DNA from: Variovorax sp. V93
GTDB taxonomy: Bacteria; Pseudomonadota; Gammaproteobacteria; Burkholderiales; Burkholderiaceae_C
DNA length: 64,000 nucleotides
Assembly: GCF_041154485.1 (NCBI RefSeq)
Contig: NZ_AP028669.1
Span: forward strand, 2,170,001 to 2,234,000
Direction of reading: 5' to 3'
Both the position numbers and the translations under genes were made by a program. A model generated the notes under the pieces. The model was not told the DNA's origin. It saw only the letters and a program-made list of their open reading frames with translations, and ran no database searches. This document shows positions 55,107-57,260 of this stretch, one piece after another (the stretch's first letter is position 1; every line of letters starts with the position of its first letter).

Positions 55107-55511
55107 TCAGAGGTCTTCGATGACCAGCGTGCGATAGCGCTGTGCGATCGAATAGGGCACGGTGCGCACCACCTCCATCAGGTGGTTGGCTGCCTCTTCG
55201 TTCTTCGTCCTGACCAGGAGCCCGGTGTGGCCTTCGCGCGCGAGCTTGGTGTAGGCGCGTACGGTGGCCGCGTCGGTTCCGGCCGACGGCAGCGGCTCGT
55301 CGGCTTCCCGCACCGTGGGTGTGATTTCTTCCAGGATCGTGGCCGCGGGAAGCAGGTAGATCTCGTCGCCGCTCACGCCGTTTTCGATCAGTTTGTGACC
55401 GATGCGGTTGGCGTCTTCCGCGCTTGGAAACATCACCATCGAATAGCCTGTGGGGTAGAAGGCGCCGCCGATGCTCGAGCGCATGCGGGGCTCTAGGACG
55501 AAACTCTTCAT
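55107..55511 (-). CDS. Uncharacterised small stress-type protein (134 aa)
   Basis: The protein starts MKSFVLEPRMRSSIGGAFYP and continues TGYSMVMFPSAEDANRIGHK, with no signal peptide and a mixed alpha/beta pattern that ends SIAQRYRTLVIEDL. A DUF-type family is likely but not recognised. A GGAGGCAGCATC sequence gives the ribosome binding site. A GCAGGCCTACAGCG sequence lies about 65 bases upstream, as in several small genes near 19-34 kb. The gene is convergent with the antiporter gene. Confidence 0.7.
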   Translation of the reverse strand: MKSFVLEPRMRSSIGGAFYPTGYSMVMFPSAEDANRIGHKLIENGVSGDEIYLLPAATILEEITPTVREADEPLPSAGTDAATVRAYTKLAREGHTGLLVRTKNEEAANHLMEVVRTVPYSIAQRYRTLVIEDL

Positions 55512-55745
55512 GATGCTGCCTCCTGGTGATGCAGTTCTTTGCCCACAACACTAGGCCTGCTGCCGGCGGGGCGCTGTAGGCCTGCTCCCCGTATTCCCGC
55601 AGGTTTGGCGCGGCAGTCGCGGCGCCGGCCGGCCGGGCTCTTGTACACTCCCATCCTCATGCCGTGCCATCTCTTCCCCGCCACCGTCTGTGCAGCCTCC
55701 ATGGCCCGCATGATGCCGCCTGCCTGCGCGCGGGCGGAGGGGTCA

Positions 55746-55790
55746 TTGGTTGCACGAATGATTACCACCATTACCACCGCGGCCACCTGA
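55746..55790 (+). CDS. Threonine/isoleucine-rich leader peptide
   Basis: A 14-codon frame reads LVARMITTITTAAT (TTG start, then stop TGA 55788-55790), so 5 of the last 9 residues are Thr and two are Ile. A shorter version begins at ATG 55758 (MITTITTAAT), and the frame is also open upstream to ATG 55701. TTG is favoured because GGAGG lies at 55736-55740. The pattern is the hallmark of the E. coli thrL leader (TTITTTITIT). The stop codon lies within the first hairpin arm, as required for ribosome-controlled attenuation. The next gene is homoserine dehydrogenase, the branch enzyme to Thr and Ile. Confidence 0.75.
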   Translation: MVARMITTITTAAT

Positions 55791-55886
55791 GCACGCGCAG
55801 GTGGCCGTTTCGGCAGCCACCTGGTGTATCGCTCTTCTTCTCCGAACGAATGAAACCCAGCTCTGGCAGCTGGGTTTCTTGTTTTT
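55780..55886 (+). promoter_or_regulatory. Thr/Ile transcription attenuator of homoserine dehydrogenase
   Basis: Three structures lie between the leader codons and the gene. Stem 1:2 is a perfect 10-bp pair CGGCCACCTG (55780-55789) with CAGGTGGCCG (55798-55807). Stem 2:3 uses the same CAGGTGGC (55798-55805) with GCCACCTG (55816-55823). They exclude each other. The intrinsic terminator is GAAACCCAGCT (55852-55862) with AGCTGGGTTTC (55868-55878), an 11-bp stem with a 5-base loop, followed by TTGTTTTT (55879-55886). The exact switch that frees or blocks the terminator needs RNA folding; the segment 55816-55824 can also pair weakly with 55857-55867, which would disrupt it. Confidence 0.8.
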
Positions 55887-55901
55887 CATCCGGAGATGTC
55901 C

Positions 55902-57260
55902 ATGTACCGCGATCCAGTCCAGTCCCTCGAACCCCTGCCCAGCCTTCCTGCGGCCATTCGTGCGCTGCGCGTGGGGATGATCGGCATCGGCACCGTCGGC
56001 TCCGGCACGCTGCGGGTGCTGGCGCGCAACCAGGCCGAGATCGCGGGACGGGCGGGCCGCCCCATCGAGCTGGCGATGGTGGCTGCGCGCAACCTGGTGC
56101 GCGCAGCCGCCGTCGTGGGCGGGGATATTCCCTTGACGGACGACCCGCTGCGCGTGGCCACCCATCCCGATGTCGACGTGGTGGTGGAAGTGGCCGGCGG
56201 CACCGGTCCGGCGCGCGAATGGGTGCTGGCCGCCATCGCGCACGGCAAGCACGTGGTCACGGCCAACAAGGCCCTGCTCGCGGTGCATGGCGCCGAGATC
56301 TTTGCCGCGGCCCGGCGGCATGGCGTGGCCGTGGCCTACGAGGGCGCGGTGGCGGTGAGCATTCCCATCGTCAAGGCGCTGCGGGAGGGCCTCGCGGCCA
56401 ACCGCATCGAGTGGGTGGCGGGCATCATCAACGGCACCACCAACTTCATCCTGAGCAAGATGCGCGATGAAGGCCTGGACTTCGCCGCGGCGCTCGCGCA
56501 GGCCCAGGCACTCGGCTATGCCGAAGCCGATCCGGCCTTCGACATCGAGGGCATCGACGCCGCGCACAAGCTCACGCTGCTGGCCGCCAATGCCTTCGGC
56601 ACCGCCGTGCGGCTTGCCGACGTGCAGGTGCAAGGCATCACGGCGCTCGAGCGGGTGGACGTGGCCTGCGCCGAGCAGCTGGGCTACCGCATCAAGCTGC
56701 TGGGCCTGGCGCGGCGCCGGGAGGAGGGCGTGGAACTGCGCGTGCAGCCCGCGCTGGTGCCCGCGTCGCACCTGATGGCGCATGTGAACGGGTCGATGAA
56801 TGCCGTCATGGTCAAGGGCGATGCGTCCGGCGTGACGATGTACTACGGCGCGGGTGCCGGCTCTGAGCAGACCGCATCGGCGGTGATTGCCGACCTGGTC
56901 GACGTGGCGCGGCTAGCCGGCACCCATGCCGCACAGCGGGTGCCGCACCTGGGCTTTCATGCGCATGCGATGAGCGCATTGCCGGTGCTGCCCCGCGCCG
57001 AGGCATGCTGCGCGCACTACCTGCGCATTCCCGTGCGTGCCGCGAGCCATGTCGAGGCGGTGTCGGGCTGGCTGGCGGGGCAGCAGGTGCCGGTGCGGCA
57101 GGTGGCGCTGGCGGCTGCGCAGCCCGGCATGGGCGCGCAGCTGCTGGTGCTGACGCAGCCGGTGCGGCAGGGCACGATGGACCTGGCGCTGCAGGCCCTG
57201 CAGGCGCATCCTTCGGTCGCGGGAAAGCTCACCGCCTTGTGCGTGGAGACGCTGGCCTGA
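55902..57260 (+). CDS. hom: Homoserine dehydrogenase
   Basis: Homoserine dehydrogenase reduces aspartate semialdehyde to homoserine, the step toward threonine, isoleucine and methionine. The 452-aa protein has the NAD(P)-binding motif GIGTVG (G28, G30, G33) in VGMIGIGTVGSG, the substrate domain with GIINGTTNFILSKM and DIEGIDAAHKLTLLA, and a C-terminal ACT-like regulatory region (about 375-452). The ATG at 55902 is used because CGGAGATGTCC precedes it; ATG 55896 is too close to the ribosome binding site. It lies 16 bases after the attenuator's T-run. There is no thrB or thrC gene next to it. Confidence 0.94.
   Translation: MYRDPVQSLEPLPSLPAAIRALRVGMIGIGTVGSGTLRVLARNQAEIAGRAGRPIELAMVAARNLVRAAAVVGGDIPLTDDPLRVATHPDVDVVVEVAGGTGPAREWVLAAIAHGKHVVTANKALLAVHGAEIFAAARRHGVAVAYEGAVAVSIPIVKALREGLAANRIEWVAGIINGTTNFILSKMRDEGLDFAAALAQAQALGYAEADPAFDIEGIDAAHKLTLLAANAFGTAVRLADVQVQGITALERVDVACAEQLGYRIKLLGLARRREEGVELRVQPALVPASHLMAHVNGSMNAVMVKGDASGVTMYYGAGAGSEQTASAVIADLVDVARLAGTHAAQRVPHLGFHAHAMSALPVLPRAEACCAHYLRIPVRAASHVEAVSGWLAGQQVPVRQVALAAAQPGMGAQLLVLTQPVRQGTMDLALQALQAHPSVAGKLTALCVETLA

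Follow-up and report, generated by a model that had tools for sequence, protein, structure and literature searches.

A probable amino-acid attenuator with an additional pairing layer upstream of a second homoserine dehydrogenase gene in Variovorax

Amino-acid attenuators have been described in several bacterial lineages. In the trpL attenuator of Sinorhizobium meliloti, the leader ORF begins at the 5′ end of the RNA, the control codons are Trp codons and the alternative structures follow the usual four-segment logic. The ilvBNC attenuator of Corynebacterium glutamicum, as set out in the portion of the text available, combines a terminator, an antiterminator and an anti-antiterminator with control codons in the leader peptide, and in the model given there, pausing at the control codons itself creates the antiterminator, without a freed third arm (PMC11857589). 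In the LEU element of actinobacterial leuA, according to the available sections of its description, the run of Leu codons itself pairs with the Shine–Dalgarno (SD) sequence, and a pseudoknot is proposed (PMC1262725). In the excerpts available from the literature, including PMC1262725, PMC2864571, PMC3896937, PMC2965389, PMC4239095, PMC3766115 and PMC11857589, a Thr attenuator for hom is not described in the group of bacteria considered here; one may be mentioned in Vitreschak et al. (2004, FEMS Microbiol Lett).

The locus described here lies in a 64,000-nucleotide stretch of the genome of Variovorax sp. V93; we refer to the whole of this stretch as the window, and coordinates are those of its forward strand, on which all features of the switch lie. 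The original prediction placed a Thr/Ile-coded attenuator ahead of a homoserine dehydrogenase gene and proposed that conservation be checked in relatives, where both the leader codons and the stems are indeed conserved. We are highly confident that this is a genuine amino-acid attenuator. Comparison of the loci at the sequence level identifies a leader ORF, three arms (arms 1, 2 and 3) and a complementarity of arm 3 to the terminator.

The gene before which the switch sits is the second of two homoserine dehydrogenase paralogues in the window genome, here called hom2 (55902–57260; NCBIfam NF004976, 501 bits); the other copy, hom1 (at G000:C1:2026576), scores 578 bits. A tree of two hom1 proteins and 64 hom2 proteins, out of 91, separates the paralogues, with only two outgroup rows and a short search. 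Automatic annotation begins hom2 at 55896, probably in error; the SD spacing favours the ATG at 55902, as do close relatives, in which only the second ATG is retained. Proteins at least 70% identical to hom2 are encoded in 6 of 150 family genomes, the window genome included, with one more at 61%; within the genus of the window, 61 of 100 genomes carry the gene at 72% identity or above by manual count. Named relatives at 74–82% are Variovorax sp. YR216, two Acidovorax and one Giesbergeria MAG. The thrABC context is absent, the next long ORF on the hom2 strand being no thr gene by NCBIfam matches, and a RIO-like kinase is encoded nearby on the opposite strand.

An ACT-domain motif (VADQAGVL) and a Pfam ACT match are present in hom1 (loci compared: window 55902–57260 and L001). 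Neither the motif nor the Pfam ACT match was found in the window hom2, and the motif is missing from 11 of the 12 other hom2 rows compared, L207 retaining DEAGL. With this motif missing, hom2 may be insensitive to Thr feedback, and expression control may replace feedback inhibition. Regulation of this second homoserine dehydrogenase by expression would suggest why these bacteria retain a spare copy.

The original prediction had a short leader ending MITTITTAAT-stop, and these residues are encoded as described: read from the ATG at 55758, the sequence is ATG ATT ACC ACC ATT ACC ACC GCG GCC ACC TGA, with five Thr and two Ile codons. The start is a different matter. The frame upstream of these ten codons is open back to an ATG at 55659, giving an ORF of 43 aa (55659–55790; MPCHLFPATVCAASMARMMPPACARAEGSLVARMITTITTAAT), and this ATG sits 9 nt after an extended −10 promoter element, TGTACACT (55642–55649). 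In all 92 aligned loci, which include many close relatives, a TANNNT box (mostly TACACT) ends 6–10 nt before an in-frame leader ATG, and the frame is open from that ATG to the leader stop (31–61 aa); the same test of box, ATG and open frame in the two other frames succeeded at one locus of 92 in each. A first, stricter search for the box and ATG had found 51 of the 92. In an alignment of 18 species, gaps in the leader ORF are mostly multiples of three, and the −10 element, mostly TGTACACT, stands a few bases before the leader ATG. A start at 55758 was rejected, as some relatives (the L213 group) lack that ATG. The leader is therefore probably the 43-aa ORF starting at 55659 rather than a 10-aa peptide starting at 55758, and because the −10 box is so close to the in-frame ATG, the hom2 mRNA is predicted to be leaderless.

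Homoserine is the shared precursor of Thr, Ile and Met. The control codons in the window are ATT ACC ACC ATT ACC ACC (Ile-Thr-Thr-Ile-Thr-Thr; 55761–55778), and in the 51 distinct leader ends compared, the codons from −9 to −5, counted from the stop, mostly specify Thr, Ile or Met. Codon −9 is Ile in 41 and Met in 9; codon −8 is Thr in 38 and Ile in 7; codon −7 is Thr in 43; codon −6 is Ile in 38 and Met in 12; codon −5 is Thr in 44; and codon −4 is Thr in 36 and Asn in 8. As a separate observation, ATT is the sole Ile codon at positions −9 and −6 (79 of 79), while six ATC occur at −8; in five window genes, ATT makes up only 15 of the 106 Ile codons.

The end of the leader runs into a set of competing stems, which are present as originally predicted. 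Arm 1 (CGGCCACCTG; 55780–55789), a 10-bp arm, overlaps the leader stop TGA (55788–55790) and pairs with arm 2 (CAGGTGGCCG; 55798–55807). Arm 2 can pair instead with arm 3 (CGGCAGCCACCTGG; 55811–55824), within which a second copy of arm 1, GCCACCTG (55816–55823), is able to pair with CAGGTGGC (55798–55805). Across 86 distinct sequences, 96.4% of cells are paired between arms 1 and 2, one pair showing a compensatory change, and 94.7% between arms 2 and 3. No covariation was found in the 2:3 pairing, because arm 2 hardly varies, and with the partner slid by −3, 86.8% of cells still pair. The 1:2 and 2:3 stems thus appear to be mutually exclusive and conserved, the second by conservation alone. 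The 141-nt stretch folds at −56.8 kcal/mol, below all 200 of 200 shuffles (z −4.97).

Downstream lies an 11-bp terminator hairpin, T (55852–55878; 55852–55862 paired with 55868–55878), trailed by TTTCTTGTTTTT immediately upstream of the hom ribosome binding site, again as the original prediction had it. The U-tract spans 55875–55887. In the 10 nt after the hairpin there are 7–9 U in 72 of the 92 aligned loci and at most 6 in the other 20; 18 of these 20 loci belong to one genus and the remaining two to two more genera, and L226, with 7 U in 10, is placed among the loci that have a U-tract, although most of its genus has none. Between arm 3 and the hairpin is a C/U-rich spacer, S (55838–55848), a predicted anti-SD segment in which TCTCCG (55839–55844) is complementary to CGGAGA (55891–55896) in the SD region of hom2 (55890–55896); relatives have a GGAG-like element before the start. 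For 20 cluster representatives, spacer:SD duplexes have −14.46 kcal/mol with the own partner and −11.93 kcal/mol with swapped partners, and only 2 of 20,000 permutations were as good. The own partner is best in 3 of the 20 rows, and 12 of 20 fall below z −2 against shuffled spacers; some duplexes also recruit bases of the hairpin flank or the U-tract. At the loci without a U-tract, the spacer–SD helix is able to enclose the hairpin, and control at these 20 of 92 loci may be translational. A second small ORF over the terminator was considered and rejected, its frame, judged by eye, not being conserved in relatives.

The two competing stems had been thought to leave the terminator arms untouched. 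This proved wrong: because arm 3 is complementary to the terminator, the stems are not independent of it. In the window, arm 3 could form 12 bp with the terminator hairpin, involving the loop and both hairpin arms, and the two partners of arm 3, arm 2 and the terminator, are exclusive. The pattern is GC-N-GYC-M in arm 3, and M′-GRC-N′-GC in the terminator loop and first bases of the 3′ arm. In folded relatives, the partners of CCGGCNGCC are the terminator loop and the 3′-arm bases GCUGG; most of these relatives add pairing between CUGG of arm 3 and CCAG of the 5′ arm. The loop and both arms are thus the predicted target of arm 3, and the suspicion of an antiterminator unlike the E. coli one is borne out. 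An antiterminator directed to the 5′ arm alone was rejected by eye, the GUUUC:GAAAC match of the window not being retained in relatives; part of the 5′ arm does take part, at one end of the longer helix between arm 3 and T.

Several comparisons with permuted partners support this pairing. Mean pairs between arm 3 and the loop number 5.75, against 5.19 for permuted partners (20 unique combinations; 0 of 10,000 as high), in an ungapped count in which L162, L167/L182 and the L178 group pair poorly (3–5 of 7). The arm 3:T duplex of 24 cluster representatives has −21.67 kcal/mol with the own partner and −18.65 kcal/mol with permuted partners (0 of 20,000 as good), the own partner having a median rank of 4 of 24. 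On alignment A3, which comprises the 92 loci that remain after omission of same-genome duplicates, some near-identical or redundant loci (for example, L034, L035, L037, L153 and L208) and weak matches, arm 3 and the terminator show 39 double-change cells against 10.9 when shuffled (0 of 500) and a covariation score of 0.110 against 0.044; on the same alignment, the numbers of double-change pairs and of pair types are no higher than after shuffling. Of 86 rows, 43 have U:A or G:C at N:N′ and the other 43 have a mismatch, among them the window, which has an A·A mismatch inside the 3:T helix. Compensatory changes are seen between related species (U-A in L162, C-G in L167, via a bulge) and within one clade (L235 and L236), and on the tree the N:N′ covariation comes from few independent events, 5 changes in N and 3 in N′. 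Taken together, we think it likely that the arm 3:T helix is an antiterminator.

The leader stands upstream of hom2 in 40 of 40 loci checked, 39 by pattern and L008 by eye, and all 40 with a looser pattern; L057 and L063 are one record, leaving 39 distinct records. A hom N-terminal motif follows in an open frame downstream at 89 of the 92 aligned loci, incomplete at two of them. The other three loci, L172, L181 and L182 of a single genus (g73), retain promoter, leader and switch but have no hom match; the ORF that follows is only 114–119 aa long and is related to the ACT-like C-terminal portion of hom2 (lowest E 8.6e-21, at L172). The catalytic part of hom was not found behind these three leaders in the stretch examined.

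A covariance model built from 31 distinct leaders, the window locus included (R1), matched the leader once in the window genome, with E 2.2e-47; further matches there fall on its own complement (E 0.008 and 0.7), with two more at E 1.0 and 1.5. In the 260 nt inspected upstream of hom1, such a leader is absent and R1 has no match. At E 0.01, R1 has matches in 53 of 399 family genomes, and full-length matches at E below 1e-15 occur in 46 of the 399, in 17 genera by manual count. A further model, R2, was applied to three genera and found the leader in 5 of 9, 19 of 80 and 14 of 17 of their genomes. In an order-wide covariance search, 14 of 399 genomes pass E 0.001, 3 in the known family and 11 others, and the best match outside the family has E 6.9e-6; strong matches occur only in the GTDB family Burkholderiaceae_C. 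Ten order-wide matches (L196–L205) were rejected as resembling other terminators, L204 being an exception with a Thr-rich stretch in one frame, and the weak matches L193, L194 and L229 appeared unrelated by eye.

The order-wide match at E 6.9e-6, L195, lies before a gene that we take, from inspection by eye, to be that of threonyl-tRNA synthetase (thrS); homologues of this gene in 147 of 150 genomes are consistent with this assignment. The same kind of leader stands at 2 of 30 thrS loci from that homologue search (L242 and L245), in genomes that each hold a second thrS match. The three leaders (L195:1451–1592, L242:1374–1503 and L245:2950–3081) come from three genomes of other Burkholderiales families. 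They encode 39–42 aa with a run of six or seven Thr, have a TAG-type box just before the ATG and are probably leaderless; the stop lies inside arm 1, arms 1, 2 and 3 are present, and 2:3 has 10–11 bp. Their equilibrium folds hold 2:3 nearly throughout, 1:2 appearing only for L245 at early stall, with the SD still paired. Other short leaders (MTPRTT…, MAVRTTTTHP and MTPRTS…), each followed by a strong hairpin with a T-run, seem to be present at L272, upstream of thrS in the window genome, and at L244 and L246; these are possibly a separate Thr attenuator.

How the ribosome would set the switch can be considered from the geometry of the leader. The leading edge of a ribosome lies about +12 from its A site. 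Arm 2 begins 10 nt after the first base of the window stop codon, and across the distinct leaders compared its core, GGTGGC, always lies 10–14 nt downstream of the corresponding base, so that a ribosome at the stop would mask arm 1 and hardly arm 2. Arm 2 being left mostly free, 2:3 could form and arm 3 could not reach the terminator. We propose a ribosome-mediated attenuator that responds to charged tRNA-Thr, probably also to tRNA-Ile and tRNA-Met, and controls hom2; taken whole, and with the sign given here, this model seems to us reasonably probable. Transcription would start just before the ATG at 55659, and ribosomes would load on the 5′ end of the RNA. With Thr plentiful, a ribosome at the stop codon would cover arm 1; 2:3, as an anti-antiterminator, would then pair, allowing the terminator to fold and the spacer to sequester the SD (OFF). 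In a shortage of Thr, Ile or Met, the ribosome would stall on the first control codons, upstream of arm 1; 1:2 would then form, leaving arm 3 free to pair with the terminator across its loop and both of its arms (ON). The output would be the intrinsic terminator in the window and 71 other aligned loci and probably SD sequestration in the 20 of 92 without a U-tract. The geometry suggests ON/OFF logic that is reversed relative to the E. coli thr and trp leaders.

Folding under constraints gave mixed results. At 11 of the 20 loci without a U-tract, 3:T exceeds 0.5 at early stall and falls below 0.5 with the ribosome at the stop. Only 1 of the 72 loci with a U-tract switches at equilibrium, which counts against the model for most species, the window included, and these loci would therefore have to rely on kinetics. 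This split fits an equilibrium (translational) device on the one hand and a kinetic (termination) device on the other. A rise of SD pairing by more than 0.3 at the stop was seen at 3 of 20 loci without a U-tract and at 0 of 72 with one. Folding of the growing chain was carried out for 9 of the 92 loci; early stall was modelled by folding the RNA downstream of arm 2 alone, which presupposes 1:2. A clean switch resulted in 4 of the 9 species (L161, L167, L237 and L178); L149, L160 and L206 finish in 3:T even with the ribosome at the stop; and in the window (L143) and L064, 3:T persists only during emergence of the terminator, which is the final structure even with 1:2 kept. In the window, the two states differ little: the terminator takes over once 20 nt have emerged if the ribosome is at the stop, and once 23 nt have emerged if 1:2 is kept.

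The late Thr codons, −5 and −4, are about as conserved as the early ones, and a stall there would mask arm 1, which speaks against the reversed model. In a rival attenuator of conventional sign, a ribosome stalled on these codons would mask arm 1 and 2:3 would favour readthrough, whereas ample Thr would let the ribosome depart soon, so that 1:2 pairs and a free arm 3 aids the terminator, for example, by loop contact. Their conservation (44 of 51 at −5, 36 of 51 at −4), the fact that this sign is the usual one in E. coli thr and trp, and the success of the window terminator in nested folding whatever the state of the ribosome all speak for such an arrangement. The difficulty is that arm 1 would be masked by a ribosome at the stop as well, with arm 2, 10–14 nt away, mostly free, so that both states would be 2:3; moreover, 3:T occupies both arms of the terminator and abolishes T in the nested folding of several relatives. 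On balance, we regard the conventional sign as unlikely.

We give still less weight to an attenuator that is mainly translational in all species, with the spacer–SD helix decisive and the U-tract secondary. The S:SD complementarity that exceeds swapped controls would be explained, as would the 20 of 92 loci lacking a U-tract, but 7–9 U in 10 nt after a strong hairpin are retained in the other 72, and modelled SD pairing differs little between states. That there is no ribosome switch at all, the leader instead binding a ligand or protein, or being an unregulated terminator with a conserved short ORF, seems to us highly improbable. Close relatives do conserve long core stretches beyond the needs of codons and pairing, which speaks for it; against it stand the run of Thr, Ile and Met codons that ends inside arm 1 before a Thr-pathway gene, the open leader frame in 92 of 92 loci, the mutual exclusion of the pairings and the finding that no Rfam family matches at gathering level.

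The ribosome-mediated attenuator with reversed sign thus remains the reading we prefer. Its fullest form would join a leaderless leader with its stop in arm 1, an extra pairing layer that reverses the sign, an antiterminator that opens both the terminator and the SD helix, a sensor that feeds into termination in some sister lineages and into SD sequestration in others, the control of hom2, and a similar thrS leader in three genomes; whether all of these hold jointly we judge to be evenly balanced. Under reversed sign, a leader left untranslated would not mean silence of the gene, contrary to the usual rule, and the default state of the leader would be ON. The split between loci with and without a U-tract offers a direct way to ask how attenuators move between transcriptional and translational control.

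Three features of ribosome-mediated attenuators in general are found at this locus: a short leader ORF with end-product codons before a pathway gene, exclusive stems of which the first overlaps the leader end (2:3 by conservation only), and a putative antiterminator that uses terminator sequence, seen as complementarity and covariation. What appears to be new is the hom2 paralogue as target, the predicted 43-aa leaderless leader, the putative arm 3 antiterminator and the spacer–SD complementarity. No Rfam family reaches threshold in the window. In particular, Thr_leader (RF00506) has no gathering-level match in the window or at 8 other loci and is not among the 11 matches at E up to 10 within 55500–56000. 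The enterobacterial thr leader that this family represents is like the hom2 leader in its Thr/Ile-rich peptide, its stop codon in a competing stem, its intrinsic terminator and its target in the Thr pathway. The hom2 leader differs in that its target is a lone second hom rather than thrABC, that it has one more pairing layer and a longer, probably leaderless peptide, that its antiterminator would take both terminator arms and the loop, and that the state with arm 1 masked is probably of opposite sign. Relative to trp, it would go one pairing step further. With trpL of S. meliloti, it would share an ORF at the 5′ end of the RNA and differs from it in the Trp codons and four-segment logic of the latter. 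The ilvBNC attenuator of C. glutamicum, as presented in the text available, where the word ‘leaderless’ is used twice, resembles the hom2 leader in its three alternative structures and leader-peptide control codons and differs in its amino acids, phylum and gene and in the proposed freed third arm of the hom2 leader (PMC11857589). The LEU element, from the available part of its description, has in common with the hom2 leader an ORF with control codons, alternative structures and pairing with the SD of the target gene; its codon run is itself the SD partner, and it responds to Leu rather than Thr (PMC1262725).
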